A stretch of 64,000 nt of DNA from Sphaerolaimus hirsutus (lineage: Eukaryota > Nematoda > Chromadorea > Monhysterida > Sphaerolaimidae), in the NCBI GenBank assembly GCA_964036195.1, contig OZ038452.1, positions 6,318,704 through 6,382,703 on the forward strand, in the 5' to 3' direction. A model generated the notes under the pieces. The model made no database searches, was not told where the DNA came from, and saw only the letters and a list, made by a program, of their open reading frames with translations. The first letter of the stretch is position 1, and each line of letters begins with the position of its first letter. A program made the translations under genes and the position numbers. Of the stretch, positions 18,201 to 48,369 are shown in pieces.

Positions 18201-21200
18201 CAAATAAATATACCTACTGTGAAATCCATTATACCCGATACGTGATCTGATGAGCGAATCTAAAATTTTGTTGAATTTTAAATCATTTTTATATTTTATA
18301 TTTATCTTACTTGTTTGTTCAAAATTTGTTGTCAGTTTATGACAGAGATAGTTCCATTCTCTGTACAGCAACGACTCCGATCAGTAGACAATAGTGGCTA
18401 TGGACATTGCAGTGAATTAAATATTTTATCTTTCATTTGTGATCATTGTAATTGCTTCATAAAAGTGATTGCCACATCATTCTGATCATTTTCAGTGCTC
18501 AACCATCAAAATCGGTTGAAAATTCATTGAAATATGCACTTCCAAACGTGAGACCACTGAGAAACTGCCCGATATTTACTTCAGAAATTCCAGGCCGGTG
18601 CGATGCCTTTCGGTGCTACCACCGGCAACCGGCCGGTGCCCTTCGGTGCCGGTGCCATTTTTTCCAAAAGGCACCGGTGCCGGTGCGGTGCGGTGCCGTT
18701 TTTCCCGGTGACTTCAACATCACTAAATATGACAGCGTGCAGAATTGGGTCTAGTTCCAGTCCAGTCTCAGATATCTCAATCTGTTTTGTGAATGTATCA
18801 AAGTTTTAAAAAAGTTCATTTGGAGCGTGGCATATACCGTACTTCATCGGAATAGTATCCAATGGGTTATTTTTTTGCCGGAAAATTTGAGGGGTATTTT
18901 TCGTGGGGGGGGGGATTTTTCTCTGAGTGCTCTGCATTTGTATCCTTTGGTATCCTATGGATTAGCCCAGTTTGAGTGCATCCATTTTGAAATACATTTA
19001 TCCTGTTACACTTTGCACATGCCACAAATTGTATTTAAGAAGTTTTCATCGTTCACATGTCCATTGCACTGATTCTTGAGGGGGCAGCGCTTGTTTTTAT
19101 GGCTCGCTAAAACTGGGGCTTATTCGAAGAAATACGGCGTGTGGTTTTCGAATGAAAGTGTGATTTGGAGTAGTTGTGAGCAATTTCGTATTGAAAGTGT
19201 TTTGCGTCGCTCTAAAGTCCCATTTCAATGAAAATAAAACACTTTTTATATAACTTTAAAAACATTTTTTTGTACGAATTCAGACTATTTGTCGCCTTTC
19301 CAGACGTGAAAAAATGCCGCCGCGCTGTAAGCACAAAATCTATTGAGCATTGATTGATAAAATGTTTTTCTAGATGTAAAAATCGCTAATTAAATAATTT
19401 GTCACATGGCGATGTATTGGCAAGTGGCACCGAATACGTCGAGAAAAAAATGTCTAGGTAATTACTGCCGCTAAGGTAATCTTATCTACCTATGCTAAGA
19501 TAATCGAATTTAAATTCGCCGGACTTTTTTGGAAATGTTTTTTTTCGCTGTAAATTAACTCCTTTCCGTGAATAGCTCAACAGTAAAAAAAACTGACGGA
19601 AAAATCACTCCGTTCGGGACTTATTCGAGGGTTTACGGTAATTTCCCATATACCACCGTCCAAAAACAACAACACTAATCCACTCTAAAATCTAAATCGA
19701 CATCCAATATTGTCGCAGGTCTGAGCTCGCCGCAGCAACAATCGCTGTGCAGCGCGTCGCCGCACCAACTGCAGCAGCAGCAGCAGCAACAAGTCATGAG
19801 CGGCACGAATGCGGCCGCCGCCGCGGGGCTGTACGCCCGGCTGGACAAACTTCAGAGGGAGTTGGCAACTTGCCATGCGAAAAATGACCAGTTGGCCGCT
19901 TGGTATAGGTGGGTGGTTTTTTTTGTTTGGTTGGTTCGATTTTGGGCTGGTTTTTTTTTTGGGGGGGGGGCTTGCTTGTGTTTTTGCCGAATTATGAGAA
20001 ATGTGAAATCAGTGGGAAACTAAGCAACTAAAGACAGTAATTGCAAGAAATTGCAACAAAAATCACCGTAAATTTGCTAAAACTATTGTAGTGGGAAAAT
20101 ACTTTGATAAAATTGTTCAATCGACCAAAGAGCACAAACGTGATCCTAATCGCGATCCCGATCCCAGCAAACAGCCCAATTCCCCGTCCCCGATCCTTAT
20201 TCCATCCCTACAAACAAAAAATTCCAACAAATCAATTCCTCAAACTACGTCCAATCTCACCCCCACTACCCGATTCCATCAAACCGGGTACCCGAATTCA
20301 AAAGCACCAATCAAATTCGATCACACTAATGTCCAACCGCTGCAGGGCGGCCAGTCGCGAAGTCGGCTCGGCAACGGCCGACCGCCGCCAGTTGCAAAGC
20401 GCCGTGGAAGAATTGCGAGCGGAAAATTATCGACTCAGATCTGAAGTGCAAATGGCCGCGCAGGAGAAACAGATCATGCAGCAGAGGGTCGGTTTTTCGT
20501 TGTTGTTTTAAAAAAAGTTATTTTTTTTTGAAGGGACCTGATTTTTTGCAGGTCGTGCTATTGTTTTCAGTAGGTTTTAGTAGGCGCCAAGTAGGTTTTC
20601 CTCCAATTTTTAAAAAAAGGCTGTCTGAAATGTAGCTTTTTTTGTAAAATTCCATCAGTGTTCAGCGGAAATCAACGTTAGAGTTTTTCGATTTGCATTG
20701 GCAATCTGTTTGTATTTTGCGATTTTTTTTAACGGGCACATACTATGCTTTACTTAACTGCGCTTTCTATGCCTCCAGGCATTTTTCAGCGTTCAATCAA
20801 CTTCTTTTATGCTCCAATTATTAGACACTTATTAGTTTTTGCACCAATGGCTCTGCGCACACTAGTTTTCAACCGAAATTTTGGAAACTCATAAATCAGC
20901 TTTGAATGTATTTTAGTTTTCCAGAATGAGTCATCTTTCATCCCTGTCAACTGTAGTTGACAGTGACCTCATTCTGAAAAACTCAAATGCATTCAAGGTG
21001 GATTTATGAGTTTTCAATATTTCAGTTGAAAACAAATGTGTACAGGCACAATCCATACATTTTACGTCTCCTCCACAGAAGTTGCGTACCCATCATACAT
21101 ATTTTATTGAAAATTGGCGCGAAATTCGCAAATATTAAGCGGCAATCAAACTAAAAGCACGGTGAAAAGTATCGGCGCGTCAGAATAGAGTGTCGCATCG

Positions 21201-24200
21201 GTCCCGTCTCATGTATTCCGCGCTCCGTTCAAACAATTCCCGGTCGCGCGTGTATGGGTACGAGTGTTTGCCCTTCGTGTTTACACAGGTAAGGTATACA
21301 TATACTCGGTGGACGTCACACTTGGTGTGGAAACCTACCATAATCCGTCTGAATGATGAACCAAAGATTATACGGTTCTCATCAAAATATTTATGTCGTT
21401 TTTACTATGGAATAATTAATTTTGAAACATATCAAAGATATTATTCATTAAATTATGGTAGGATTCCGCGAAAAGTATGCGCTCCACTCGGTATACATAC
21501 CTGCGGAGCGGCAGGGGCGCCGGCCACCTGTACCCACACTTTAAATACGGGCGCCATTCAAGCGGCCGCTGCCAAGTGTTCGCGCTGCTGCGCCACTGCG
21601 GCAGTTGTGTACACGTTTGTGTGTGGCGTGTGAAGGTGGCAAAAGTTTTTTCAAATGGTTTTTCAAAAGTTTGTTTGAAAATTGTGCTGGGCACCAGAGA
21701 AAAGGATGCAATGAGGCAATAGAAATGTTGCACCAGTCTTGACCAGTCAGAGCCGTGGCTAGTGATGGGAAGTTACCAGGGGAATGGGCACCAAGGGACA
21801 CCATCTCCAGTGCTGGTGTAGTGCGCTTGCAACTTGTAGGTGTACCCAGTAACCTGGTGCCATTTTTAACATGACATGACATGGTGCTGGTGTGGTGTGG
21901 TGCAATATTATGCTGGTGCTTTAGGTGCTAGTGATAGGGGGGAAACTAATAGTCATCAGAAAGGTACCAGATGTGTTGTCACAGGCTGTTACACTGTCAT
22001 GCTCAGTCATATTTTTGAACAGCACTGCACCCAAATATAATTTTCCATAGTGTATTTTGTTAATTTTCTTTAGAAAAAATAGTTCCTCCTACCATCAAAT
22101 TACCATATTTTTCCGATTATAATTCCCAGGGCAGTAAACAGATTTGAGAGGGCACTATGCATGAAACTTTTTACAATGTATAATGCCCCAGACACTATGA
22201 TTCAGGGGAATTATAATCACATATATATGGTACTTACAAGGGAAACTCCCAGACCCTGTAAAATGCGAAATGATGAAGAGTGTCAAAATGAATGTCATGA
22301 AATGTCAAACAAACAGTAAAAAATATACTGAATTTGAATGTTTCCATGAAAATTGAAACCTTGCATGTCATTTGACCTTTTTAAAGGCATTTTACAGAGT
22401 CTTGGAGTGGCAACTGGGCACAAACTTTTTGTACAGTTGAAGCTTTGAAAATTTTCTTTCTCTTTTCATCTCCACAGCAAGCATTCTTCAAGAAATTGGT
22501 GTTTCTAAAAAGGTACATCATTTGAAAAACTAAATACATTATTTGAAAAACCAAATTCATCATTTTAAAAACTATCCTCTCATTCTTGCCATCACTAGCA
22601 TTATGTGCAGTTTCACATGCCGCCTGCCGCGCTGCACAGTGCCGCTGCAGTTGCTACTCCCGGGTAAACCAATGATTTGTCCATTTATTTGTGTCGCTCT
22701 GTTCTCTGTTTACAGCGTGCCCCCAGCGGGAGTTTGCAAGTTCTGGTCCTGGTGGACATTTTGAATGGCTACTTTTTCTATTTTTGGAAATTTTATAGGA
22801 ATTAATTTGTAGTGCTGCTATATTTCGATACTGGAAAAACGACCTTGTATCTTTTTTATTTTTTATTTTTTGTGCGCTACAAGGGCACGAATCTCGTTGG
22901 ATAATAGGCATGCAAAATTAATTTTTGTAAAGGGTGGGTGCTGCTCGAATGTCCATTTCCGTGACGGCGCTAATGATGCACATGTAGTGTTGGGGTTAGA
23001 ACGATGTTACTTTTCGATATTTTTCTCGATTTTTACGATTTATATTCGGTATTTTGTCAACATTGTCGATCTGTTCGATGTCCGAAATTCTGATGTCGAT
23101 AAAATATTCAGTGTTTCATTTCCGCGTGAAAAATATTCGATATGATATGTCGTTCCAACCCTAGTAGATGGACAAACGGATACCTATATAGCATTTTGCT
23201 CATAAAATCGCTTCCATTACGCCTGGGCACATTGTTGCTTGGGGGTATTTTCTATTTTGCGAGTGTATGGTTTATATTTATTTTATCCCACGCAATTTCA
23301 GCGCGCAGACTCGATTTACGCATGCAAATAGAAATTTGTGGATTTTCGGGAATTTAATTCTGGGGTTCGACTTTGAGCTCCTGTTAGGATTGATGTACTT
23401 ATTTGCCTTTATGTAATTCCTCGAAAAAGTCAGGACATTTTACAAAATTATGGTTTTCATGGTACTTTACATACGCTGGTAGTATATTTACCATACTTGT
23501 TTTTACATTAACTTACTTTTTATAAATATCTTTAATACCTGCTCCTTCATGTTTAAAAATAAAACCTGATCAAAATTCTTTCAACAGTCTATAGCTTACA
23601 AAGTCAACTATCTTTATAATTTAAATATAATTCAAACATTTACACAATTAAAGCCCTCATCAGGAGCATATGTGAAACGAACAAGTGTATGTGTAATGCA
23701 TTCAAGTATATAAATATGTTAAATGCATAGACATGGCGGGCGCCCAGTCACACTGACATGCGTGCCACAAGGAAGTGACAGCTATAAATACAAAGATCGG
23801 ACCCCATTGTTTACCATGGAAGTTACCATAATTTGATGATTAAAGTCACGTGGCAAATTATGCACTGGATATTTTTTCGAATAGTGAAAGCACTTTATGT
23901 GACAAGAATAATAAAATTTGCTGGATCTCTATTCACACGGGTTATGGTAGATTTCATTGTAAAGTGTAGTTCTATACATACACTGGCTGCTGTTCAGGCT
24001 GCAGCGTGCCCGCTCTCACTACCTAGGCAAGACCTTATTGCGCATTGGGTGCACAAAAGAGGTTGTGCAGAATCATAACTACCGAAAAAGGGTTTGTGCC
24101 GCGAAAAAATGTGTTTTTGGCGCTACGCACACTGGATGTCAACTGTTTCGGTGTCAACTCGATTTTGGTTGAATTTAGGTAGCAGGACAATTTTGAAAGA

Positions 24201-27200
24201 CACTTGCGGCATGATGTCAATTGGGCCGACAATTTTTCATAAATTTTTAGTTTATGGGCCGCGAAACCGTGTTCAAATGCACATGGCAATATAAATTCCT
24301 CTTCGACATTGCCGCATGTGCCCTTAAAAACTGTCCTGCAAGCTACAGTGTCATAAAATCGAGTTGACACTAAAACAGTTGACATCCAGTGTGTGTGGCA
24401 CCTTTGTCGCGTTGTGCTTCATGTGCAAGTTGGCAAACATAATCTAGTGGACAGAAGTGCCCCAGCACGCAGTTGTTATTTTGCAAATTCTATTTTACAC
24501 ACGTAAATGCAGCAGCTTTAATGTACACTTAAGTGAGGACGCGATGGTCCCTTCTTTTGTTGCTCATATTGTTTTGAAGGGTGAACTCATTGATGTGGAA
24601 ATATTTATACTGCGCTGCAGGTTTTTTTAGGATGCAGTTGGAACAAATTGAATTTGAAAATTTTAGATTTTGCGATATTTTTGTTTGAATGTGTATCTTT
24701 TCGTTTGGGGATTTTCATCATTTGTTTAAGCCGATTTTTTAGAAGGCAGAGTCAAATATTAGTCATAAGTGAGTCATTTCCTATATTTTTGTTGAAAAAA
24801 GTTTTTACTTTGTGAAATGTGTTTGTCACAGACATATTATTGTAATCATGATTTAATATGATATCCTATAGCAATTCCACCATTTTTTCGATCAGTTTTC
24901 CTTAAATTTTTTATCCTAGACGCCGCCCCCACAGAAATTTTGTCACACTGATAAACGGAGCATAAAAAGCGCGTCCTGTTGTGATAAGAATATACGTTAA
25001 TAGGATACTTTTTTGCATTTATAGGTAAATATTTACATATACATGTTGACATCTGACGTTCCAAAATACACATTTATTTTGGCGCCCCATAACATTTTTT
25101 TTTTGCTGTAAAAATTGAAACATTTAGGACATATTTGGGGCCCTAAAACAGCCAAAAATATCTTTTTCCTCCAAAATGTTTCCATTTTTTGGCAACTGAC
25201 CTTCAAAAATCGAACCAAAGAAAGGATGTCTATCCAATACGCAGGTGCTCGATTTGAACCTCAAGGTGGAATACAAAAACGAGGAATTATTAGAGGTGCG
25301 GCAGCGTTTCCGCGCAATGCAGTCGCCAAATGCGGTGGGTTGTGGTATTTTACCTTTGGTGGGTTCGAAAAGTGCCTGTGCAAATCTATTTACATGTGCA
25401 AATGGGAGATTGGAGAAATGTCTATGTTGCCATTGAAAGGATTATTTCATTTATATAGATGATCTTGTCTTGGACCACAGGAACTTTTCGTGGCTGCCAC
25501 AAAAATACCCATCTAATACACCCTACCTAATGGGAGATCACACGAAAAATCCGCCCGAAAAACACCTTATCAAATCCCACTCAAAATCAACCCCATCAAT
25601 CACAATCGCATTTTTAAAAAAAAATTTTTTTTCAAACTCAAATACCCCCCCCCCCCCCCCCCCAGGAGGACACTTCAAGCAGCCAGGGGGGTGCTGCGTG
25701 GGCCGACGGCATGTTAAAACAATGGCACGACACTCGTTCGGATAATGAGCGATTGCGAAGGGAGAATTTGATTTTGAGCGAACAGTCTGATTTGGTAGAT
25801 AGATTGCAGCGGCAGCTGGATTTGGAGGTGAGGTTATTTGGTGGTTGGCTTTTGGGTGTCAAAAAACAAAAGTGACAATTAAGGTTGAAAGGACAAGTAA
25901 TGTCTAAACTTACAACACGCGTAAAAAAAACAAGAAAATTTTATCACATTTCGGACACACCAATCGAAATATGTATTTACCATCACCCCATCACTTCAAC
26001 TTTTAGTTCAACCTCGATTAAACCCTCCTCTCCAACTTTTCACAACCTCAATTAAACACCCCCCTTTTCCAACTTTTCACAACCTCAATTAAACCCCCTC
26101 TCCAACTTTTCACAACCTCGATTAACCCCCCCTCTCTCCAACTTTCCACAACCTCAATTAACCCCCCCCTCTCCAACTTTTCACAATCTCAATTAACCCT
26201 CCCCCCTCCAACTTTTCACAATCTCAATAAAACCCCCTCTCCAACTTTTCACAACCACAATTAACCTCCCCCCCCCTCCCAGATAACGGGTCGCGCGGAA
26301 GAGCGCGAAAAGCACCGCGCCGAAATAATGCAACTTTACGAGCAGCTGCACCGGCAAGCCCAAGAAAAGGAATCGCTCAGAAATCGCCATGAGGCGGGCA
26401 GGCAGCGCTATGAGGACGCCCGATTGGAACTGGAGCATTTGCGACGCGACTGCAAACTGCTGTCGGAGAATTTGGCTCGCGCCGAGGCGAGATATAAGCA
26501 GGTGGGTGGGTGGAACTATTTGCGTAAACTAGTTGACAATGGTACCGAATGCCAACTGGTTTCGATCCCAATTTGAAGCTTGTCGACGCTTAACACTACG
26601 CATTATTGTATACACATCTACTTCATGTCAGCTTTGTATAAACATTGCACATACCTTCATTTGAAAAATGATTCAAAATTTTTGCATTTGAACGTCAGTC
26701 GTCGGTGAGCTTCGAGTTGGGATCGGAACCAGTTCAAATTCCATCCAAATGCCCACCAAATTTCCAATCACCAAGAATCATCACTATCACAAACAATCAG
26801 ACCCAAAAACATCCTACCCACCAAATCGGGCAACCCGAAAAACCCTGCCCGCAATCGAAACCCCTCCCAGGTTCACGCCGAGTACGCCAACGTGATGTCC
26901 GAACGTGACGTGGTGCTGCGCGAGAACGAGGAGTTGACCAATGCCAAAGATCGGTTGTCGCAGCAGCTCAAAAAGTCCGACGGCCATCGCAAAGACCTTC
27001 AAACCAACGTGGACACGCTGACCAATCAGGTGCCAATCCCAGACCTTGTAAAATGCCCTGTAAAATGTCAAATGTCATGCGAAGTGTCAAAAGTCATGTA
27101 AAATGCCCGGTAAAATGGCAAATGGCATTTTACCGGCATTTTACGTGACTTTTGACACTTTGCATGACAATTGACATTTTACAGGGCATTTTACAGGGTC

Positions 27201-30200
27201 TGGGAGTGCCCGCCCAGCTGCGCGACATTCACATGGAGAAGGAGCGCGCCAACGCCAACGCCAGTGTCAGCGCCAACGCCAACAACACCGCCTTCGTGCA
27301 CGTGGGCGACCGGGCGTCGGTGTCCAGCGACGACGACACGCCGCCGCAGCGGCAGCAGAAGACTGTGGAGCTGCGCGGCATGATCAATGATTTGCAGACG
27401 ACTACTTATAATTTGCGCAATGAATTGGCCGAGGCTAGGTAAGGTGTTCTTTTTGCCCGATTTTTTTTTGTCGGGCAACCCGATTAGTTGTGTGTAATTA
27501 GTTACTAATGCGGAAGGTTTGAGGTAAATATTTGTATGTATGTAAGTGGTAAGTAGCGTATTTCCTCGAAATACCCCCCTCGAAATAGCAATCAAAAGGG
27601 ACACAAAAATGTATAACCCCCCTCGAAATGCCCCCTCCCGAAAAAAAAGTGTATGGAGAACGTAAATGACAAAAGATACGGTTTGTGATCCGGAAAACGC
27701 AGAACAATGACTGTGTTATGTTAGAACTGGCTTTATACCGTCAAGGTACTAGCTTATATAAGTCTATAGAATGTTATACATGGCGGTTTTTGTTGCATTT
27801 TTCGACGTCTGTGTACATGTCGACGTATGTACAAACAACAACTTAGTACTGGGAATTCAAAAAATTTCCGGCGAAATAATAAACCCCCCCACGAAATACC
27901 CCTCTCGTTTAACCCCCCCCCTCAAAATTCTCACTCTAAAAAATAAACCCACTGTGGGGTATTTCGAGGAAATACGGTGGATATATCTATAGACAGTATT
28001 TCCTACTGACAAGTAAATTTTTAAATGAAAGTACTTGTCACTTGTCCAATTGCGGAATTGGACTTTGTACTGTGAAACTGCACATAATGCTAGTGATGGC
28101 AAGGATGAGAAGGTGGTTTTTCAAATGATGATCCTTCAAAAAAAGCAATTTCTGGGAGAATGCTTTTTGTGGGGATGAAAAGGGAGAATGGAAAATGTCA
28201 AATTCTATTTTATTTTTTTACTGTTTGTTTGACATTTTCATGCCATATTGCATGACTTTTGACACTCTCCGTGATATTTTACATGGTCTGGGAGTGGCCC
28301 CTGAAGTTATTTGATGGTAAGAGCAACTACTTATTCCTGAGAATTTTTCTTAAATACACTATAGACTCTCATATTTGGGTGCACTGCTCTTCATAAATAT
28401 GATTTAGTCAGGGACATATCCAGCATTTTTGAGCAGGGTGCTGTTTGTTTATGGAGCCCAGTGAATGGGGGGAGCTCGCCCCCACCATCCCCTAGACAGT
28501 GTAGTGTATACAGAGGATGATGCAGTAACATCACATGAAAACCTATCTGGTAACTTTCTGATAACTTTTCTTTTGCCCCCTAGTGCTAGCACCTAAAGCA
28601 CCAGCATAATATTGCACCACACCACATCAGCACCATGTCATATCATGTTAAAAATGGCACCTGTATTTGCGGTTCAAACAGGATCCCGATCCCGATCCCG
28701 AATCCTGAAAAATTTCGGGATTTAGCGGTCCCGATCCCAGTCACGATCCTGAAGCCTCAATCCCGATCCCAATCCCAAAATTCCAAAAAGCCAATCCCAA
28801 TCCCGATCCTGAAAGTTTTCAAAACCCAATCCTGATCCTGCAAAAAATTATAAAATCCCGATCCCAATCCCGGAAAAAATTGGCAACATGTTTTAGTGCA
28901 GTTTTTGCACTAATAAATGTGAACAGACACATCCAATGTCCACTTTATGCCATGTTTCTGACATCCAGATGTGTTTTAGGCCATTTTTGTGCAACAATCA
29001 GCGAAAAACAAGTATGTTAGGACCTTTTCTAAATTGCCAATCCCGAAAAATGCTAATCCCCGTCGCGATCCCGAAACCCCAATCCCATTTCGATCCTGAG
29101 ACCTCAATCCCGATCCCGATCCCGATCGCGAAAACTCCAAAAGCCAATCCTGATCCCGATCCCGAAAAGTCAATCCCGTTTGAACCCTACCTGTATTGTT
29201 ATGTTACTGGGTACCCCTACAAGTTGCAAGCGCACTACGCCAGCACTGGTGATGGTGTCCCTTGGTGCCCCGGTTCTGTTCCCCTGGTAATCTCCCATTA
29301 CTAGCCAGAGCTCTGTAAAGACTGGTGCAACATTTCTATTGCCTCATGGCATCCTTTTCTCTGGTGCCTAGCGCAATTTTCAAACAAACTTTTTAAAAAC
29401 CATTTGAAAAAACTGTTGCCACCTTCACACGCCACACACAAACGTGTACACAACTGCCGCAGTGGCGCGGCAGCGCGAACACTTGGCAGCGGCCGCTTGA
29501 ATGGCGCCCGTATTTAAAGTGTGGGTACAGGTGGCCGGCGCCCCTGACGCTGCGCAGGTGTACGCTAGCCTGCGAAGGTGACAAAATATTAGATATAAAA
29601 AGGCTCACCATTCTGTTCGGATCGCATGTTTTGCAGAGACAGTCACCATATTTTTTTGTGAAGCAAGTGGTATCACGGTCAACTTTGGCTTTTGATTAAA
29701 AATACCGTATTACCTCGAATTACCCCCTTGAATTAACCCCCCTTGAATTACCCCCCCCCCCTCAAAATGGGCTGGCGGAATGATAAACGCCCCATCGAAA
29801 TACCCCCAAAATAATCCGGAATGATGTACATGTATGCAATGTACGTGATGTGACGCAATGAGTATTACTTCTAATTTGCACCACAGCTACACATAGACTA
29901 GTTTGTGTAGCTATCTACGTTTTTACGTCCAAATATATCCTGCTGGACACATTTATAACCTGTTTTTTTTGGGTATGCAAATGCCCACTATTTACTACGA
30001 TCCTTACGGAAATTCCACCTCCTCTCGAATAAGCCCCCCTCGAATTAACCCCCCCCCCTCAAATTTTGCCGGCGAAATAATACACCCCCATATACCGATC
30101 AACCCTACTGATTAGATAAATCACACATGACAATTTAAATCATCCGAAAACTCCCATTTCCACCCAATTCTAATTTCAGATCGAAACGGGACTGGGCAAT

Positions 30201-33200
30201 GTCCGAACGGGAACGCATCGTAGCCGAACGAGACTCCATAAAAGTCATGTGCGATCAATTGAGACGGGAAAGGGACGACGCTATTACGAGATTGGCCAAT
30301 GCTATAAAGGATTCTGACGATTTGCAAAGGCAAAGGGAAATGGCTCAAAGGCAGTTGGACGAATTTCGGTGGGGTTTTTTAGTTTGTGGATATTGTCATG
30401 ATTAAAAAGTGCAAAAATTGCACTGCTGCGGGTGGGAATCGAACCCGTGTCACGTCTCGCGCGCGGCCCCCTTCAACGCGAGTCCGAGGCCGCACTAGCG
30501 GCTGGGCTAAGTCACTTTTAGAGGTTTACATGTTGCAATCTTCAATCGCATTGCGTAAATTTTTGTGGAAAGTTATATTCTTGGCGAGAATGTATGCAGA
30601 TGTTTCATGGGTAGGGCGTTAGCGGCGCATGTCTTTCGCAGATTGCATTGCAGAACTGATAACAGTAGAGTAATTTTTTTCCAAATAACCTTCAGCTCAG
30701 TATGTATAGACACTCAAAGGTTGTCTAAATTGTGTTTACCTGCGAAAAAATGCAAAAAAATAACATCCTAGTGATAGTAGCGTGGTTTCTATTTGTTCTG
30801 TTTATTTAGTTATTAAGCGGAGTGTTCATCGCGTTCTGCCTAGCATTACGTCAGATGATTCTTCAGATGCTAGTTCCGCAAATTGAGAAGTGAGACGAAA
30901 ATTGGCAATAGTGATATGAAATAGCAAGTAGATTGGCAAAAGCGAAGTAAAAAAGAAAAAGTAATTTCCCTTCGCTTTTGCCAATTTCCTTCTCAATTCA
31001 CTTCTCACTTCTCATTTCAATTCGCATTTGCCATTTTACTTCTCAATTTGTGGAACTATCCCCAGATCATACTCGAAAATAACTGAAATTTTTTCCTCAC
31101 TTGCCCATTGTGCAAAACACATCAGCGTGTGTAACATGCCAAATTTCTCCCCCCAAAAGAGCACCCCCAAACAACCCCCCCCCCCCTCAGCTCGATGTTC
31201 GAAAGTTGCCGCGCCGGCGACGCGTGCAGTTCGTCAACTGCCGCCGTAGCCGCGGGCGGCGGGTCGGCCGCGTCGCACAGCACCGACTCGGCCATCGACT
31301 CTGACATGGCCGAGTGGGAAGTGGAAACGGTGCAGCTGAGCGCGCCCGCCTGCGCCGCCGGCGACGATTTGGGCGTGGAGCTGCGCGGCGGCAGGAACGC
31401 CACCGACCAGATGCAGCCGGGCGGCACGTGCGCCCAGCCCATGCCCGTTTACGTGAAGTCGGTCGCCGCCGGGTCGAGATTCGACGGATTGTTGAGGTGG
31501 GTCTGGTGTTCGGTGTGGTTTCAGATACGGTACGTTACAGTGAATGTGTTTACTCATTGATATATCGGTAAACGATATGGTACCGTAAAATTGTGGTGAT
31601 ATGCAGAAACCAATGATTTCGAGCAAAAATTCAAAAATAGAAAACATTTTTCCCCATTTACCGAAACACCCCTGTACAGTAAGAAAACTTTCTCAATCTA
31701 CCGGAAATTCTCACTACGGTACGGTAAACCCCTCTACCCTTTCTACCCAGACCCTACGATTGCATCGTGCAAGTATCCGGTATCGACGTGCGACACATGG
31801 AGCGCAGATCAGTTATCGACATTCTATGCAATGGACAAAATGTGAAAATGACAGTTAGGCGTCGTCGATTGATCGGCATGAAAGTTGTCAGCGTGCCAGT
31901 TTCTCCGGTCGACCACAATTCCGATCTCGGTTTGCTGTTCGAAAACGGCGTGTATATAAGTCAGATTAGACCCAGTTCGGCCGCGGCGCGGGCAGGGAGT
32001 CTCGCAGTTGGCGATCGCATTGTTTATGTTTGTTGTTTTTTAAAATTGTTTTTTTCCTCCATTTTTTCCTCCATTTAAATATTCAATATTAATCTTTCAA
32101 AAATAAGCTTCGAAAGAGACCCTTCGAAAATAAGCTTCGAATGTGCACACGGTAAATTGATTCGAGTTGCTCACTTAGGTAGGGCCCACACTAGTTGACA
32201 TCACAATTTCGTGTCAACTGTATGTCAACTTAATAACACAAAAATTTGAAACAATGAAAATTAGGTGTCACGATATAAAATTAACTATGCTTTATCACAT
32301 TGGAATGTTGAAATTACACAATTAACCAAAATTTAGTTGACACGAATTTTGATGTCAACCAGTGTATGCGGGCCCTTACAGCTGGTTACTTAAATACAGG
32401 GTAATTCAAAATCACCCAACCCCCACAGGTGAACGACATCCCAACGCAAGGCAAAAGCGCGGGCGAACTGCAAGAACTAGTCCGCTCCCTAGCAAACTCC
32501 GGCCTGGTCCTAGCCGTGAAACGGGCTCCGCCCACTTTGATGTCTCCCGTAACTCCGTTGGCAGCGTGCCAACAACACGGGTGGCACAAAGCCACGGGCG
32601 CGTTGAATTGCCGTCGCCCGCCCGTAGAACGTGCGACGCAGACGAATGGTGATGGGCAGCATGGGGGTGGACATTTGGTGTCGTCCCCTTCTACTACGGC
32701 TATTGGAAGCGCGTCTTCTGATGCTCAATTGTGGTTTGTTGGGCGGGGGGGGGGGGGTTGAAAACAAGTTTTTCACTTTTTTTGAATGAACGATGCAATG
32801 AAGAAGTAGTGAAGAATGCAGGGCGAGAACTCGGTGCGCATGTAAACCCAGGGATCGGAGGAGGCCAGGGACATATCCAGAATTTTTGAGCGGGGGCTGT
32901 TTGTTTACCGATTTACTTTAAAATATCAGTGTGATCAAAAATGCGGGAAATTTGGCTTACATGTGCACCGGGTTTACATGCGCACCGGCACAGACCCGAA
33001 TGAAGTGCTGGACCAAGCCCCGCACCTTGTCAAATTCTATGTGAAAAAATGTAATATGGGATGCGTAAAATGGGAATTAACGGAATGGTGTGGTAAAAGT
33101 TAAAATCTTAGTTACGTATAAAAATATTTTATATTTTTATACTAAAAGTCTCATAATATTAATAAAAGTGTTCTCCCCATAAATCCCACTTTTACACTCA

Positions 33201-36200
33201 CTCAGGCTGTCCAGCGCAGACGCGGCCACGCCCGAGTCCATGCCCACGTCGATGCACAACGCGGCCGCGGCGACGGGCAGCCAGACTTCCGCCGTCGCGT
33301 CGCACCACTCCACCGCCAGTCCGCACAAGGGCTCCAGGTGCCAGTCCCGGACCGTGTAAAGTGCCCTGTAAAATGTCAAATGTCACGCAAAGTGTCAAAA
33401 GTCACGTAAAATGCCCGGTAAAATGGCAAACGTACGTTTGCCATTTTACCGGGCATTTTACGTGACTTTTGACACTTTGCGTGACATTTGACATTTTTAC
33501 AGGGCACTTTACAGGGTCCGGGACTGCTCCCAGGGGCACTGCTGGCGCGGCCAACCTGCTCGACCGGTTTCTCGGCCGCATCAAAACGCCCGCGTCGGGC
33601 AAGTCGGGCAACCCGACGCCGCAACAGCCCGCCGCGTCGGCGGGCCAGCTCAACGGCAGGCAGCAGCCGCAGCTGCACGCGCCCAATGTGCTCGCGACGG
33701 CGACTAGTGGCGGCGCCGATAGTAGGGTCAGGTAGGTTGAGGAGGTTTTTGAGGTTGCTTTTTTGTTTGGATTGTGGAGGTTGCGTGAGGTTTCGTGCCG
33801 GTTTTGAGAATTTTGTATGCGTATGCATATGGCGTCCCACGAGATTCTGTGATGCGTGGGGTTGGGATGATATAAATATTTATGATCATATGGGTTGATA
33901 TCCATCCTTGTCAAAAATTATGATCAACATTCAAAAAAAGTCGATTATTTGCTATTGCGCGACATCTGGCGCCATGTTTTCACCGGAATTTGGAATCAAC
34001 GAACAACATAGCTTATTTTTTGAATCACATTTCGACATTGAAAAGTTACAAATAAATATCATCCCAACCCTAGTGTTGCATGGCCGCAGCGTGACTTGGT
34101 AGTATACACATATTTTTTGATTTTTTTGTGACTGGAACTTGTCAGGGTCTTGCTTTTGGTTTTAGTCGTGTTGCATTATGCGTAATGTTCACCTGTAATC
34201 AGTGGGTGCGCTGCGCGTGCCGTCTGTGTAAACTGATTTGTTTATGGAAATGGGACATCTGCGATATGAGCTTATTCAAGCAGGTGCCACTCCCAGACCC
34301 TGTAAATAACTCTGTAAAGTGTCAGACCCTGTAAAATGTGATGTGTCATGTATAAGACCCTGTAAAGTGTCATGTGTATCCAAATATTATTTTATCGTAT
34401 CCAAATCTTATGTTTTCTATCCAAATCTTATATTTTGACATAAAATACAAAGACATACAAAAACATAAGATTTGGATACGATAAAATAAGATTGGATACA
34501 CATGACACTTTACAGGGCCCTTTACATGACATTCGACACTTTACAGGTTTTTTTACATAACACATGTCATTTTACAGGATCTTTTACATGACACATGACA
34601 TTTTACAGGGTCTTTTACAGAGTCTGGGGGTGCCCAAGTATTCAAATACAACCATTGGTCGCACAATGATTTTGGGCATATGCTGATTCTGATTGGTCAA
34701 TATCTCAGGATGTGTAGTTTAATAAGTTCAATTTTTTTTAATCCAATGCTAATTAAGCCACTTCCCAGTTATCCCATTTGTGCGTGGAAATTGATTTACG
34801 CGGGCAGTGTTTATGTGCACCCACTTGTTCATAAATCGTAGAGTCAATTTCACGCCTTTTCTAGTGACAAGAAAGTAAATACTTATAAAGAAAGTATTTA
34901 GGTAATCGCTTTTCAAAATACCTTACAAGTATATTAGATGTTTTTGCTTGGATACTTAACGCTTGCTTGTCACATGAAAATGCGAAAAATCATATCAATG
35001 GTTCGATAGCACACCCAAAAAATAATCACACTATAATCGTTGCATACAATCGTGTGCATGCGTGCGGAAATCATGCGAAACTTTTTTAATTTTCACCTAT
35101 TTCTTATTTGGTGGCGCTGTTTTCAAATGAGCATCTAAAATTTCCACAATTTTATTTGTCGATTTCACTGTCAACCTGTGGCCATGGTAACTTTATTTAT
35201 CTTCACCAAAATAATATAGCACAGCTTCAAAACGGGTTGATTTCCCCGTATCAGGTCCGTTTCGCCCAACGAGATTTCGTCCGCTGGCGGTTCGGCCCTT
35301 CGCTGGACCGTCGGTCACCAGTGCGAATCGGAACAGGACGAAATGCAACAGCGCCAACGGCAACAGCGAGAACAACAACAAGAACAGGAGGGGGCGGCGG
35401 CGCGCGAGCGCCACAAGCGCCCGGCGACTATCGTTTTGGCCGCCGGCGACGGCCCCCATTATCAACAGCAACATGCGCAGCAGATAACTGGGCAGCAGAT
35501 AACCGGGCAGCAGATAACCGGGCAGCATAGTCAGAGAAAGGCTAGGGAAAGTTTGGAACGTGAAGTTTTGAGGGAATTTGACAAGATTCTCAATGAGGAC
35601 CCAAGCGCGTTAGTCGGGATTTCTTTTTTGAGGCGGTTTGAAATCTGAAAAATAGTTATTTTGTAGTTTTTTAATAATATTTTTCTTTCATTTTTTGTTA
35701 GGCATGTCATTTGTAGATTTTAGTTCTATTAAAATATGTGAAGTTGTTTTTATGTAGAGAAATTGTTTCATTTATTCAGAGAGATTGACATTCTGCATGG
35801 CAGTGATTTAGTTTTTGCTATTCTTACGTTTGTCCTTGTTCCATTTTCAAACTATAACTGAATTTTAAAATATTGTTTTTATTTTGCAAGTGCTGCTGTA
35901 GCGCTCTTGTAAAAAATTGTGCTAGATTAGTTTCAGAAATCCCGCATACGAGCTTCACTTCGCACTTGAAAACAAAACTGTGTTGTTGTTTTTTTGTTTT
36001 AGTTTCTGTTGATATTGAGAACTCATTAATGCGAAATTTTACAGTTAAATATTATTTTCAATTTTGCTGCAAATATAGGTGCGCGCAAACACACAGTAAA
36101 ACACACTATCACCTCGAATAACTCCCATCGGATGAATTTTTTTTCGTCTGACAGTATTGACCTTGGAATTTTTCAAGCGGGTAATTCACTTATCATTCTA

Positions 36201-39200
36201 CTAAATTTTAGATGGCAACACAAAAATCTGAAATGTTATTTTTTTGAAATGAGGAGTTTTTCAACGGGTGGAGTTAATTCGAGCTTATACGATTCACCCT
36301 TGTGCCATTAGATCAATGCACAGTTTCTAAGCGTCAATCAGGGGCACACTAGTTTTCTGGTGAAATTTCGAAGATTTGTAGAAAAATCAGCTTTGAACTC
36401 ATTTGGGTTTACCATAATGACTATTCTATGATTGTCAACTATTTCTTGGAGATCAAAAATAACTCATTGCGGTAAACTCAAATGCGTTCAAAACTTGTTT
36501 ATGAGTTTTCCGAGTTTTTCGAAATTTCGGTTGAAAACTAGTGTGTGTAGGCACATTGCGAATCTTGTCATATGATAGTGATGTTAAAAGTGAAGTTGTG
36601 GGTGAAAACCAAGTGACAATTTAGCTGGTGATAATGACAGTGAAAAACTTTATGTTTCCCCAAATAATAGTCTACTATATAGTCACTTTACATGTTTACT
36701 CATCACTTGACAAGATCCCGAGTTGTCCCCAGGTGCCAATCCCAGACCCTGTAAAGTGTAAAGTAAAGTGTAAAATGTCATGGAAAGTATAAATTTTCAT
36801 GACAAATGTAAAGCAATGTGTCAATTGTCATGCAAAGTGAAGTAATTTAAGTTTCTGGTCTGGACATTTTATATTACTTTTGACACTAAAAATACTTTAC
36901 ACTATACAGGGTATACGACTGCCTGGTCACATTCCACCCGCACCGCAGTTCCATTTACATACACAACACTCACACATACAGAACACACACACACAAAAAA
37001 AAATAAAAAAAAATAAAAACACCTTTAGATTCGACTGCGCGCCCGGGGCCACGTGGCCCAAGTACGGCGCGCCGACGAGCGACGAGTTCGAGTCGCTGCG
37101 GCAGGCGACGCTGGCGGCGGCCGTGCAGCGCTGCGGCGCCAAGCAGCGCAAGTCGCTCTTCCCCGTGTTCGACCAGTGCAACCTGCAACAGTGCGTCCTA
37201 GATTGTCCCGTGTGCCGCGGCTGCCTGGGGCCCGATCCAATTGGAATGAAAGGCGGTCGAATTGGGTAGCCTGTGTGCAGTATTTGATGGGCTTGCTACC
37301 GTGCCGGGTGCCTTACGCGCGCCTTGCGTTCTAATTGGATTTGGGACCAGGTATAGATCAATTCCGCCAGTGGACAGGTGACAAGAGAAGCTGTAGTAAT
37401 AAGTAGGTAAAAAGTGGTGAAGTCAGTAAATTGATAAGTGACAACAAATTTTTTTACTGAAAATACTTGTCACTTTTAGTTTTACTTGTCTATTATTTAG
37501 GTACCCATTTGCTTTTGCCAGTTATACCTAGTTACGACTTTGTCACTGACCGTGTTCCTTGTCGCTTGTCTACTCGCGCAATTGCAACATTGGCTGATTT
37601 TAATCAGCCCGGCGTGCTTTTTGTCGGGCTGCCCGATAAGTTGGGCATGAAGTTGGGCACTGGCCGACTCCTTGTCGGGCAGATTAAATTGCATCTGCGG
37701 AAAACTTTGTGGCATCTGTGGCAAGGCACTTGTCATTGGCTGAATGACCGATTAGCGTAACTGGTACCGTACATGCTGCATTTACGGTGACTCTGTGACA
37801 TCACTTTATTTCAGGGCCGTATCCAGGGGGGGGGGGCGGGGGGGGGCTGCAGCCCGGTATGAGACTAAAAAATTGTGGGAAATGCAACTTTTTCTATACA
37901 TTTTTCATCGCATGTGCCAAAATTTTGCGCGCCAGCGCGCATTCACCTACTCAACCATATAGTTATCAGTGCATGGGTCCCCATAGGCACAAATCCTTTA
38001 AATTCAACACAAAAGTGTGCTTGCCTGCCGCTCAATATGTACGTGTATTTACATACATATACAGTGGTTTCTGGCACTGGCGCCAGCGCCAATGACGCCA
38101 TGGCGTTGCGCCTACGAATGGCGCCAGCGCCATGGCGCCATTCCGTTACTGTGTGGGCAAAATTTTAGGGGGGGGCTGAGCCCCCCCCCCCTCGCCGGCC
38201 TCCGTAAACAAGCAGCCCCCCCCGCTCAAAAATCCTGGATACGTCCCTGCTTTATTAAGCATACTCGTCTTTGAAGAATTTTTTTAAACTTGCCCTAAAC
38301 ATTAAGTGCCAATTTTGTACATCAGCCTTCGCGGTACCAGTTTCTGCATTCGGTCTGCAGCAAATTGAGTCTTCGTTCTTTCGTTTGTGTGCGTTGCCGC
38401 CACTGGTAACTTTTTGTCATGCCTCTCCACCCACGTGCTTTTTTGTGAATGTCTTCTTTTTTGAAAAAGTCTGTCGCTTTATAAATAGGGTTCGGATGAT
38501 GTGTATGACTCTCTGATGTGATTAAAAAATATTTTTTTGGTGTTGACATTCAAATGGTAAATGTGAAAAAGTGCCTCGATATCAGCTCCACACATTAACA
38601 TCAACTTGATGTTGATATCTAAAATTTTTGTGAGTGTCGATTTGAAAAAGTGTCTCACACTCGACCTTTAAACATTTCTCACACTGAACAAACAAATACA
38701 TACCATCCAAACTCTACCATTATCCCCAAAATCTCTTCCAAAACCCCAAAAACTCCACACAAAAAACACATTCCCCCAACCCCCCTCAGACTGCCAGTGC
38801 CGCCAACCCGAGGCGAAAGCGGGAACCCACCGGCCGCCCGGCCCGTGTCCTACCACCCGGGCACCAGCGACCAGCACTACTACGCCCAGCAGCAACAGTA
38901 CCTGGACCAGGCGCAGCGACTGCAGCAGCCGCCGCGGCAGCAGGGCGACGCGACGCAGCCGGGCGACAAGATGCACATCTACGACGACGTGCACAGCCCG
39001 TCGGCGTTGAGCGAGTCGGGCATGCACGCCAGGCTGGTGACGGAGAAAATGCAGGTTGGTTTTTGGGTTGGGGGGGGGGTAATTACCACCCCCATCGTAT
39101 CCAATCCACACCCAACACCCCCAACAATCCCCCCACAGACATACTACGCATCGCCCCTGCCAATGCCCTCCGGGGGCGGGGGTGCCTCGGGTGAGAAGTT

Positions 39201-42200
39201 CCCCTCCCCTCCCCCCTACCCCGGACCCCCCAGCCACCAGACTACAGCGGGGGGTGTTACACAGCAGGGGGGTGCCGGCAGCGCATCTAGTGTATCTACT
39301 TATGCGACTCCTGGTGCAGCTAGGAGATATGGTTTGTGGTTTTGGATTGACCTTTTTTTTTGGGGGGGGGGTATTTGGGAGATTTTGATGTTGAGGTGGT
39401 ATGCATGAGAGTATCAGTGGGTGAATAATTATAAAACCTGTATAAATGCATATCCATATCCAATGGTAACAAAGTTGACATGAAAAGTTTTAAGTGCTGA
39501 GTAACGTCACTTTTTTACAACAACACGTATCACTCAGTGCAACGCACGTCGCCCATGGGTCCCACTAGCGAGCGCGACCTGGCGCTGCAACTGCACGGCA
39601 GACACGCCGCCCAGCTGCAACAACAACAACAACAACAGCAACAACAACAACAACAGTCGGGCACGTTGGTGCGGCCGGGCGAACTGCGCCACGTCAACAT
39701 CGACAAGGGACACACCAGGTGCCAATCCCAGACTCTGTAAAATGCCCTGTAAAAGGTCAAATGTCATGCAAAGTGTCTAAAGTCATGTAAAATGCCCTGC
39801 AAAATGGCTAACGTACGATTGTCATTTTCCAGGGTATTTTACATGACTTTTGACTCTTTGCATGACATTTAACATATTAAAGGGCATTTTACAGGGTCTG
39901 GGATTGCCCCCAGCCGAGAGCACCTGGGAATTTCTGTCGATTCCAGGGGCCACGGAGTTTTTATCACTCGAGTTTCGGAAAATAGTTTGGCCGCCAGACA
40001 CGGAGTGCTGGTGGGAGATCAGTTGATCGACGTTTACGGGATTAGTATGGCTACAGCCGATTTGGAGTATGTCAAGAAGGTGCGTTTTTTGGGGGGTAGG
40101 GGGGTTTACGTGCCTCGCGGGCGCACTGCTCTGTAACTGCGGCAAAGGATACACACCAGCAGCTGTTGGCGCCGGGTTTGGCGCGTGCCGTGTAAATTCA
40201 ACGCATGTTCAGCGGTGTTATATGCCAACTGCGCGCACGCAGCAAATGTCCACGGGTGCTTAATGTCCAGGGGTGTTTAACGTGCGTGGATCGCCCTTTA
40301 ATCCTTCAATCACACACAAATCCAAACACTTCCCACGCAAAACCAGGTACTTTGCAACCTGTCCGGGCAGCAGTCGATCTCGATGACCCTGCAATACAAC
40401 CCGACCCGTTACCAAGCGGAACTGGGCTCTACCCGACAGTCGGGCAACGTGTCGGGCAGCCCGGCCAGGTCGCACTACGGGCCCGCGTCGGGCGTGGGGC
40501 AATCGGCCCTGTACGCCGGCCGCGCCAGGCATTTCAGCCGCGACAGTTCGGTGCATTCTACTGGTGCTCACAGGTGTGTTGAGTGGGGGAGTTAATTGGT
40601 TGTTTTTGGGTGATGTTTTGGGGTTGGAACACACTTTTGGATGGAACCTATTGTGCCTATACACGCTGGGCAATTGACGCGACATCGATCGATGTCAGTT
40701 GCCAATAGAATTTTTTTGAAAGTGTAGCTTTAGAATGTTAGTGATTCATAATAATGAATCCAATAACAATTCACATTTTGGCACACTTTCAATTAAAAGT
40801 CCATTTGGCAACTGAAATCAGTTGACGCGGCGTCAACTACTGTGTATAAGGTCGTCGTTCCAACCCTAAACTGCCGTTGTGTCAATTTTTACTTTGCACT
40901 TATCGCCTCCGTAGTTGTGTCGTCATTTTCCGACAAACTTTTGCTAATATTTATCTTCCTTACTAATCGTTCATTCGTTATTAGCGAGTACGGCGCCCTG
41001 TCGGTGAGAAAAAATTGCTGTTTTTTATTTCTAAATTTGGATTTGGTGTGAGCGTTTCGTTTTTGATTTTGTCGTTTTTTAGTCGAAATTTGCCGCCGCT
41101 GTACAAAATGAAGCATGTGAAAAAAAAATTTCTCGCTACATCGTCAACGAAAATAAAATACAAGTAGCGTTTTCGGACATTAAATAACCACTTTTTACAT
41201 GCTTTGCCTTTGTAATTCCGTTGTATTTACACACTCCAGGGGCTTATCCCGCACGTTGTAAAAAGAAGTAACCGATTTCACATATTATGATGACATTTCC
41301 ATCAATTTACATGCAAAGTTTCACATTTCGGTAACATGGGAGCAGGGCTCTTTCGCCATTTTACTTGATAATCGAGAGTTTGGCGTTATCAATTGACAAA
41401 TTCACTTGAAGTTGCTGGATTGGTGCCTGGGGACTGGCTTTGACTTAATTTCTATTTTAGTGACGTTGGTATGTACATGCACATTATATTTACATACATT
41501 TATACACAAAACGCTATTGTAGTGCACATAGAGGAAATTGTTGTCTTTTGGATGAAAACACATTTGATATTCCACATTTTTAGTTTTACTGGCCAGTTGA
41601 GTGGCAGGGAAATTTTTGATCAAGTTAAAACTTAATCTTCCAAATTCTGTCAAGTTATTTAGTGACGAAATTCTGGAGAAATTTGGAAGTTAATGTTCAC
41701 TGTCATGAAATACGGTTTCAGATCTCTTGTCAAGGATGGACGAAGTTTCTGCTTAAATGGTACCGTTTTTCGATGAATTACAAAATTTTTCAAAATTTGC
41801 CACTTGACAATGTGCGACACTCACAATAGACCCCCTGCCCTCACCTGGAACAGTGCCAACAACACCCCCAAGTAAGTACAATCCTACCAAAACGCATTCA
41901 CCGTTCACAGCCGCGAAGTGCTCGGCATCATTAACGAGCACGAGGCGCTCGCCGCCGCTGCAACAGCCGTCGGCGCGGCGGGCGGCAGCTACCGCAACAG
42001 CGGCAGTTCGTCCATCTACTACGGCGGGGCGCACCAGCAAAACTACAATCACAATCATAACCACATTCAGAACCAGGGGCAGCAGGTGCCAGTCCCGGAC
42101 ACTGTGAAATGCCATGTAAAATTTGAAGTGTCATGTAAAATGTCAAAAGAAATGTGAAATGCCCTGCGAAATGGCGACCAATGCCCTGGGAAATAGCGAA

Positions 42201-45200
42201 TGTCACGCAAAGTGTCAAAAGTCATGTAAAATGCCCTGCAAAATGACAACCGAGTTGCCATTTTGCAGGGCATTTTCCACGACTTTTGACACTTTGCATG
42301 ACATTTGCCATTTCGCAGGACATTTTCCACAACTCTTGACACTTTGCTTGACACTTGACATTTTACAGGGCATTTTACAGGGTCCGGGACTGCCCCCAGG
42401 GCGGCTACGGCGCGGTAGCGGGGTCGGCCAGCGCTGGCTATGGTATCACGGGCAGCAAGTGCGGCAGTTTGGGCAGGCACTCGCAGGCGGCGGCGGCCAG
42501 GGCCCGGCCGCACTCGTCGCACTTGGCTGGCGCTTACGCCGCCGCGCCCGCGTACACGCAGTCGCTGCCCAGACAGGCGAATAGTCAGAGGTTGGTGCTT
42601 GGTGTTGTGTTACAAGTCTCGGCTGATAATGCTGCTGTGCTGTGGAGGGTGCAAATTGTCGATATTTTCCAGTATCGGTGTCGATATCGTAAAATTGAAA
42701 CGTTTGCATGCTTAATAGGATAGCTGCGATACTGGTATCGGAAAAATTCCACGGGAGTCTCGAATTTTCTTTCTAAGAATACTGATGTCACTTAAAAACC
42801 ACCAAATTTTTTGGCAATTTTCAGTTTTTTTGGCGAAACGCCTTGGAAAAAATTATATTCTAGGTTTGACAACCCAGATCCCGACTCAATTCGCAACCTA
42901 ATTTACACATATCTCGATCCCTAAAACCCAGTCGCATTTAAACCCACACCAACCCACATCACCCCAACCCTTTCCCAGCACGTGCGTGAGCAGCGAGGAG
43001 CCCAACGGCAACATGGACTTATCCCTGCACCAGTCCGGCGCCCCCGACCTCAACCCCATCGGGCAGCCGCGCGCAGTTTTTCTGCGCCGCCTCACTCAGC
43101 GCGGCACGGCCGAAACTGCGAAATTGGACTTTGGATGGGGATTTACCGTGGCCGGTGGAAATGCAGTTGGCATTTTCGTTCATCAGTTAACTGTTAACCC
43201 GGTCGAGTTTTACGGCGTTCAGGAGGAGTTTCCCAATTCGGGCGATCAGATTTTGGAGGTGATTTTTGTGGGGGGGGGGGTGTTTTGGTCAACTGTTTGA
43301 GGGTTTACATTGGGCACCAAGTGTGGTAAAATTGGCTTGCTTTTTGGGTGCAGGTCAAATCCGCAAAGATCAAAATTCACTACTCATCCCGCGATTGTTT
43401 TTCTCATTTCAATAATAAAATACCGTATTTCCTCGAAATACCCCCAGGGGGTTTATTTTTTCAGAGTGGAAATTTTGAGAAAGAAACGTGAAAAATGCAA
43501 CAATAACCACCATTTATAAGTTTTTACAGCTTTATATAAGGATGTAGATGGTATAAACGATGTTCTAACGTAACACAGTAAGTGTTTTGAACGTCTGTTA
43601 TGCATTTCCCGGACCACAAATACATAGTGCCCATTTCGAGGGGGGTATTTCGAGGGGGGGGGGGGGGGGTATTTAGAGGAAATACGGTAAGTAAGTATAT
43701 AAGATATTTATGAATAAAATTTAAAAATAGAAATTTAAAAAGCTTCGTTTTTTCTTCAGTGGAATGGGGTCGACCTTCGGAATGCGACATTGGAACAAGC
43801 GGTATCTGAATTGCAGCGGAAAACTGAACCCAGTGTGCGCGCCGTTTTACAGTACAATAAAATCCGTACGTTTAGTTTTTGTATTTGTTATATTTGTATT
43901 TTTTATGCCTGTTTGCAAGGCATTTTTTTGGTAGGAATGAGGTTATAAAGTTTCTGCATTTAGTCCTCGCAATATTGAGTTATTTTTTCGATACATTTTT
44001 TTTTATCCAAGTCATGTATACCGTATTTCCTCGAAATACCCCCCCCCCCCCTCGAAATACCCCCCCCCCCCTCGAAATACCCCCCCTCAAAATGGACACT
44101 ATGAACTTATAAACCCCCCCCTCGAAATACCCCCCCCCCAAATTTAGTGTATAGAGAACGTAAACGACAAAGGCTGCGGTTTGTCATCCCGACAATGCAG
44201 AACACACGTTAAAAACGATGACTCTGTTATGTGAGAACAGTGTTTGTACGTCTACACACTTATAAATGTCTTTAGAGTCTTATAAATGGCGATTTTTGTT
44301 GCATTTTTCGACGTCTGCGTACGTTTCAGACGACATTTTAGTACTGGGATTTCAACAAATTTCTGGCGAAATAATAACCCCCCCCCTCGAAATACCCCCC
44401 CCCTCGTTTAACCCCCCCTCAAAATTCTCACTCTGAAACAATAAACCCCCCGGGGGTATTTCGAGGAAATACGGTATTTTTATGCATAGTCCGAGACAAG
44501 TAAACTTTATTTGATTCGATTTGATCCAACCCTACAAAACAAGCTTCACAACAAAACCCCAATAAACCCCGCCCCCCCCCCCCAGAATTCGACCGGTGCA
44601 CTGGGGCGAACGCTAGCGCGGGCGACGCGTTCTACGTGCGCGCGCTGATCGACCGGCCGGCGGCGAACTGCGACGAGCTGTCGCTCAAGGCGGGCGACAT
44701 CGTGCTCGTGGACAACACCGTGTTCATGGGCAAGCCGGGCAGGTGGCGGGCATGGATGCTCGATTTGGAGGGGAGGTTGGATTTGAAGGGGGTAGTTTTT
44801 GGTGACTCGTTTGGGGGGGTCTCGTGGTGACATAAGTCTTTGGTTTTGTTAAATTGTGATGTAAAAGCGCCATGGCGAAAAGCCCGATTGCCATGGTTGT
44901 ATTTGACGCTGTTTCTTTGTTCGATCTTATACTTTTGTCCACCCGTACCTATGGTATTTACTATTCGTGTCACTTACCCCTCATATTTACGACGGTGTAA
45001 TTCGGGTGTGGGGGGCTTATTCAAGTGCTCCCTATAATTCAAAATTCATGAAAAATTGACAGGCAACGATCGTGCGGCGTGGTGCCCAGCCGCGCCAAAT
45101 TAGAAGAGGAGTTTATGCTAAGAAGATCTGGCGATCAATTGGCACAGCCCACGGCCAACTCGAGTGCCACTGATTTTGCACAACAGGTAATTTCGGCTTT

Positions 45201-47663: not shown

Positions 47664-47915
47664 CCAATCAATTCTTGGAACACTGCCAATTTTGACATTT
47701 GACAAGTGACAAATCTTCCATGGTCATACAATGATTACTGGTATTTGCAGGCCGTTTTTTTGCTGGTGCCCTCAAGTTTTTGGAATGCAGCCAATCAAAA
47801 AGTTGTTGTTTATTTTTATATGGCTGTCTTATAAATGCCGTCTGTTGCTGGGTGCGTGCTAAATTTTATCATAGATACAATAATTGTGTATACCTACCTA
47901 TTTACGTTGTATGTA

Positions 47916-48369
47916 CCGTATTTCCTCGAAATACCCCCGGGGGGTTTATTGTTTCAGAGTGAGAATTTTGAGGGGGGGTTAAACGAGGGGGGGGGGTATT
48001 TCGAGGGGGGGGGTTATTATTTCGCCAGAAATTTTTTGAAATCCCAGTACTAAAATGTCGTCTGAAACGTACGCAGACGTCGAAAAATGCAACAAAAATA
48101 GCCATTTATAAGACTCTAAAGACATTTATAAGTGTGTAGACGTACAAACACTGTTCTCACATAACAGAGTCATCGTTTTTAACGAGTGTTCTGCATTGCC
48201 CGGATGACAAACCGCAGCCTTTGTCATTTACGTTCTCTATACACTAAATTTGGGGGGGGGGGTATTTCGAGGGGGGGGGGGGTTTATAAGTTCATAGTGT
48301 CCATTTTGAGGGGGGGGTATTTCGAGGGGGGGGGTATTTCGAGGGGGGGGGTATTTCGAGGAAATACGG
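47916..48369. mobile_element. family A MITE, long type
   Basis: CCGTATTTCCTCGAAATACC ... GGTATTTCGAGGAAATACGG between TA. Reverse-oriented close relative of 44021-44474. Confidence 0.85.

Follow-up and report, generated by a model that had tools for sequence, protein, structure and literature searches.

The origin of new introns is a long-standing problem, for which few examples of introns made by transposons are available from animals. A locus that bears on it lies in 64,000 nucleotides of the nematode Sphaerolaimus hirsutus (GenBank assembly GCA_964036195.1, contig OZ038452.1, positions 6,318,704 to 6,382,703 of the forward strand). This stretch is the window analysed here; its gene content is animal, and all positions below are counted from its first base. 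Judged from the PDZ and Guanylate_kin domains that Pfam finds in it and from the best structural match of its third PDZ domain, the central gene of the window (about 19.7 to 47.2 kb, plus strand) is DLG5. Its approximate exon span is 19679-47213, to which the outermost exons presumably belong, and it encodes a coiled coil, PDZ domains and a guanylate kinase-like domain. A first-pass annotation proposed that four introns of this gene are each one complete transposon.

Four introns bounded exactly by one element

The four element-introns, all on the plus strand, are numbered 1 to 4 here and lie at 27030-27217 (phase 0, in the coiled-coil region), 33338-33533 (phase 2, where no domain is recognised), 39719-39913 (phase 2, within PDZ3 and close to its start) and 42086-42399 (phase 0, a longer copy of 314 nucleotides in a low-complexity region). 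All eight ends of the elements fall on the eight inferred exon borders with zero offset, which confirms that each of these introns is one complete element, and no non-element sequence is left over in any of them. Their general anatomy is CAG/GTGCCARTCCC.../CAG, with slashes marking borders. An exonic CAG precedes every element, as had been reported. The left end is GTGCCARTCCCRGAC and the right end is CCCAG with exceptions, intron 1 having two additional bases close to its right end (...GTGCCCGCCCAG) and intron 2 ending in GGGACTGCTCCCAG. The duplicated CAG occupies 27215-27217, 33531-33533, 39911-39913 and 42397-42399, respectively, and one terminal sequence of the family is GTGCCARTCCCRGACCCTGTAAA.

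Excision of the element restores the reading frame in all four cases and yields continuous peptides; the exons are open on either side, and each element, if retained, would introduce an in-frame stop. Intron 1 separates two inferred coding exons on the plus strand, 26871-27029, which is open after an acceptor-like CTCCCAG and has the target CAG (27027-27029) at its end, and 27218-27438, followed by the ordinary donor TAG/GTAAGG. A heptad-like spacing (L-V-L-L-I, 4-3-4-3), read by eye in the joined peptide, runs unbroken over this join. Another ordinary donor, CAG/GTAGGT, stands at 33732. The PDZ3 exon downstream of intron 3 (39914-40079, plus strand) is followed by the ordinary donor AAG/GTGCGT, and the best PDB match of the PDZ3 peptide joined over this intron is human DLG5 (1uit; E 1.8e-8). 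The alignment runs from ELRHVNIDKGHT before the join through REHLGISV beyond it, with a 3-residue gap in human DLG5 at the join. The restored frame and the placing of one element within PDZ3, both claimed in the first-pass annotation, are borne out by these peptides. From frame and homology, we infer splicing at the element borders.

The element is a near-complete palindrome. Its inverted-repeat arms measure 81 nucleotides at 90% identity in intron 1, 64 at 100% plus 46 at 85% in intron 2, 97 at 86% in intron 3 and 91 at 81% in intron 4. RNA folding of the complete elements gives long hairpins of -118 to -180 kcal/mol (z = -17 to -36, each element against 30 simple shuffles). The outermost few bases are partly unpaired in these hairpins. 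One may speculate that the hairpin aids splicing by bringing the intron borders together. RNA-level selection on the hairpin is not claimed: among 88 predicted pairs in introns 1-3, there are five in which both partners are changed and 14 that one sequence breaks or gaps, and the covariation term for these three sequences, with intron 4 left out, is unfavourable (+1.34).

Pairwise identity among the four element-introns is 83.3-91.9%, as against 57-69% to five other copies in the window (2462, 59701, 36733, 52853 and the reverse of 22240; copy 34284 and the fragments were left out of this alignment). On the strength of these identities the four form one subfamily, and one that is not brand new. 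Their surroundings are unrelated: blastn of the exon flanks (150 nucleotides per side, E up to 1e-3) found similarity in none of the six site pairs, and duplication within the gene, or copying of one exon-intron unit, is therefore not their source. Exact borders, continuous peptides and unrelated flanks together support the view that transposons act as introns here.

No known RNA family lends the element a name. Rfam gave no match at gathering score anywhere in the window, and its 11 matches at E <= 0.01 were all to microRNA-precursor families below gathering score, as expected because the elements are hairpins; a name based on them was rejected. The 23-nucleotide terminal motif had no exact match in viral and genome contig collections, and element 3 had none in a phage collection. 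All these collections are non-animal, and the searches are uninformative on whether relatives exist.

A probable target duplication and CWG flanks

CAG is a classic exon border. Here, as far as the flanks allow a judgement, it looks like the transposon's own target duplication and not like a trace of splicing selection, because CWG (CAG or CTG) also flanks many copies that do not coincide with a recognised exon border. The first-pass annotation missed this. The five extra-exonic copies that it named (2464, 34284, 36733, 52853 and 59702) all exist, and a further copy or single ends lie near 22240, 28300, 41240, 51205, 51309 and 54108.

Ends were searched throughout the window with a 19-nucleotide inner motif that excludes the outer 7 nucleotides and the flank, and the next three bases were then read. 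Several flanks had been seen by eye before the count, and the cut-off of three mismatches was picked after viewing the match list; at this cut-off, simple shuffles give a chance level of about 0.5 matches per strand. The 32 matches comprise the 8 intron ends, 17 others and 7 internal repeat units (27087, 39776, 42215, 34320, 34351, 34524 and 34617), the last of which were dropped. CWG flanks 7/8 intron ends; only intron 1 lacks it on the right, where its two additional bases shift the end. Away from exon borders, CAG or CTG is found at 9 of the 17 outer ends against a background of 0.0257 (binomial P ~1e-10). This set of 17 probably includes chance or decayed matches (28696 is likely chance), and not all of the ends are independent. 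Retaining the four dropped units of copy 34284 gives 9/21 (P ~1e-9), and including the right ends of 34284 and 36733 (four mismatches, non-CWG) gives 9/19 (P ~4e-10). Over all 25 ends counted, the flank is CAG or CTG at 16 and TWA at none.

Matching CWG on both sides is limited to the four element-introns and the copy at 2462-2657, which has CAG on both sides, the right one being displaced by one base relative to the counting rule. Two copies on the plus strand between DLG5 exons begin CAG/GTGCC: 34284-34636, whose right side lacks a matching duplication, and 36733-36925, whose right flank is non-CWG. A weak right-end-like sequence at 36704-36732 (6 mismatches) abuts the latter, as if two elements shared one CAG. 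The copy at 52853-53031 (plus strand) begins CTG/GTGCC and has a non-CWG right flank; it lies in the interior of one inferred intron of an Mpv17-like gene. A decayed copy between DLG5 exons (22240-22413, minus strand) has CTG at its right end and CAA at its left, and the copy at 59701-59923 (minus strand), which adjoins no recognised exon border, is flanked by CAT at either end. The remaining pieces are right-end fragments at 28227-28300 and 51168-51205, each followed by CTG, a degenerate left-end fragment at 41240-41265 and a left-end fragment at 54108-54133, each preceded by CAG, and a left-end fragment at 51309-51334, preceded by the non-CWG triplet AGG. The best reading of these flanks is that the family makes a 3-bp target duplication with a strong preference for CWG, a preference that would account for the CAG at the exon borders.

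A proposed one-step route from transposon to intron

A non-autonomous DNA transposon family, namely a palindromic miniature inverted-repeat transposable element (MITE) with a CWG target, very probably creates introns in one step at this locus. In the proposed mechanism, a putative transposase places the element in a CWG trinucleotide, which is duplicated in the process. Where the coding strand carries CAG and the GTGCC end lies upstream, the RNA would read exon-CAG/GTGCC...CAG/exon. The left CAG would form the exon side of the donor site, GT would come from the element end, and the duplicated CAG would be the acceptor. Splicing, presumably by a spliceosome that uses these sites of the element, would take out the element together with one CAG and give back the original codons. 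The reverse orientation would present a GG donor, and a site reading CTG would offer no AG; if orientation and strand are both random, the intron-forming outcome would be one of four combinations. The transposase would presumably be of NuwaI type, from among the relatives of PIF/Harbinger, and membership of the family in this group is plausible.

The ends of the elements agree with this polarity. GTGCC forms the left end in the four element-introns and also in copies 34284, 36733 and 52853 off exon borders; the GT was therefore already in the family and was not selected after insertion. Read in reverse, the right ends are GGGGC in introns 3 and 4, GGAGC in intron 2 and CGGGC in intron 1. The asymmetry of ends that had been noted earlier, GTGCC against GGGGC, is real: all four elements, if reversed, would begin with GG instead of GT.

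Much of the path of intron gain would be legible in sequence, as a target preference that covers CAG and an element terminus that supplies GT. Because the CAG site and the altered end together resemble a ready-made pair of splice sites, an exonic insertion could become a new intron at once, and the model predicts which exonic insertions do so, namely those in which the coding strand reads CAG and the GT end is upstream. A broader proposition, for and against which we see even weight, is that a transposon group with a CWG target comes pre-adapted for intron formation: the duplication would furnish the exonic CAG as well as the acceptor CAG, and a change of the terminus from GGG to GTG would suffice. 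If true, replacing the second G of a GGG terminus by T would turn an ordinary family into a generator of complete GT-AG introns in animals, and active CWG-targeting elements would yield new introns at CAG sites in one orientation.

Points against and competing explanations

Several observations weigh against the one-step origin by a CWG-targeting MITE. In introns 1 and 2, the right end read in reverse departs from GGGGC. The element donor, GTGCCA, lacks the G at +5 that is present in 10/12 ordinary donors of DLG5 (read by frame), and its score of -0.6, from a donor matrix, is under those of 11 of the 12 (0.1 to 6.2; the twelfth scores -3.9). In intron 4, a donor site at +30 scores 0.6, above the element-end donor, and in all four introns an internal GTRAAR donor at +18 would keep the frame and add six residues. 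Copies 34284, 36733, 52853 and 22240 show CWG at just one of their ends and lack a clean 3-bp duplication, and the duplication at 59701-59923 is CAT, not CWG. Pfam detected no transposase domain in the 27 sequences scanned (20 open reading frames and 7 peptides; the window holds 71 open reading frames of at least 110 amino acids). Autonomous NuwaI copies would carry a DDE transposase and a Myb/SANT protein, and neither domain occurs in those 27 sequences. Finally, the arms of 64-97 nucleotides, in a palindrome that fills the element, exceed the 12-61 bp given for NuwaI terminal repeats in a section of PMC4482050 that does not treat miniature copies separately.

The internal donor leads to the strongest competitor, in which the elements are introners spliced from a site 18 nucleotides inside the left end, so that every insertion adds six amino acids. 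The GTRAAR motif is in frame in all four copies, the added codons are free of stops, and an Aureococcus family with a 12-bp addition (PMC9860276, legend of Fig. 2F) provides an analogue. Against this, the +18 site scores below the element-end donor in all four by the same matrix, narrowly so in introns 1 and 2 (-1.4 vs -0.6), and in intron 1 the added VPIPDL would place two prolines in a coiled coil whose heptad-like spacing spans the exact join. Use of the +18 donor is thus unlikely. On the acceptor side, use of the acceptor-like TTTTACAG in the right arm would shift the frame by 19 nucleotides in introns 2, 3 and 4 and would keep it in intron 1 (21 nucleotides).

Two further explanations would dispense with intron creation by a DNA transposon, and both are very improbable. 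Elements might have landed in pre-existing introns and merely resemble whole introns; copies 34284, 36733 and 52853 do sit between exons within larger introns, but the eight ends of the element-introns lie exactly on inferred exon borders and no remnant of other sequence survives in the four. The introns might instead have spread through RNA, with an intron placing copies of itself elsewhere by reverse splicing. This process, which has been proposed for fungal introner-like elements, would likewise yield near-identical introns exactly filling the gap between exons. Terminal inverted repeats, 3-bp CWG flanks and the presence of copies off recognised exon borders (two of them, 2462-2657 and 59701-59923, with duplications) point instead to cut-and-paste transposition. 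Such repeats and duplications are absent from the ascomycete families as portrayed in the pertinent passages of PMC9860276. Creation of the four introns by transposition of the palindromic MITE remains the preferred explanation.

Other features of the window

The Mpv17/PMP22-family gene that harbours copy 52853 lies at 52490-53961 on the plus strand (Pfam E 1.6e-11 on the open reading frame 53623-53961), with exons at 52490 and 53060 assigned by eye. An open reading frame at 62191-63999 (plus strand), which runs past the window end, matches DUF1759 (E 3.5e-19), a domain known from the gag proteins of BEL/Pao retrotransposons. Between DLG5 exons, a different hairpin-forming repeat with ends like CACACTAGTTTTCAACCGAAAT occurs at 20853-21045 and 36480-36551. 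Repeats with ends like TACCGTATTTCCTCGAAATACCCCC are found in both orientations at 43618-44108, at 47907-48378, near 50858 and near 27957. Long inverted repeats lie at 57170-57685 (257-nucleotide arms, 96%), 4085-4402 (159-nucleotide arms, 88%) and 55391-55769 (80-nucleotide arms, 94%).

Comparison with known systems

Among DNA transposons, the closest parallel is the NuwaI group of the PHIS superfamily, PIF/Harbinger relatives that make 5'-CWG-3' duplications and are known from 16 animal genomes only, as summarised in the section of PMC4482050 devoted to them. The family described here shares the CWG target duplication. NuwaI repeats usually have GGG at their start in that section; here the reversed right end is GGGGC in introns 3 and 4 but GGAGC in intron 2 and CGGGC in intron 1, and the family differs in that one element end is GTG. 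The words intron and splic have no match in the main text of PMC4482050, which does not discuss intron formation. Strict PIF/Harbinger elements, with their TWA duplication, are unlike the family in the flanks counted above.

A burst of newly gained introns in an animal is described for Eurytemora affinis, where AG is obligate before noncanonical GA or GG donors, nearly all with A at position 3, and where no transposon or repeat is named (PMC5714493). The introns of DLG5 would instead have a GT donor, supplied by the transposon end.

Introners themselves were found in 175 of 3,325 genomes, with only two animal groups among them, in the survey of Gozashti et al. (2022), and the relevant passages of its text (PMC9860276) put the families at 5 to over 2,000 copies and describe many as fitting non-autonomous DNA transposons that have inverted repeats and make short target duplications. 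Neither Harbinger nor CAG has a match in its main text. Among the matches listed from open-literature titles and abstracts there was no introner with a CWG target, and other papers or the survey's supplementary tables could contain the family. Like the introners in those passages of the survey, the DLG5 elements are similar introns at unrelated sites, with similarity reaching near both splice borders. Their host is an animal, and the 64-kb window has four intronic copies, each of them in DLG5. The nearest counterpart is a Chrysochromulina family in which, according to the legend of Fig. 2C of PMC9860276, the element carries the donor and the acceptor is borrowed from the duplication. The same division is seen here, except that the Chrysochromulina introners have a 4-bp duplication and no terminal inverted repeats, whereas the duplication in DLG5 is 3 bp (CAG) and a palindrome fills the element. 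The elements of S. hirsutus DLG5 are best read as an introner family produced by DNA transposition, a kind already known.

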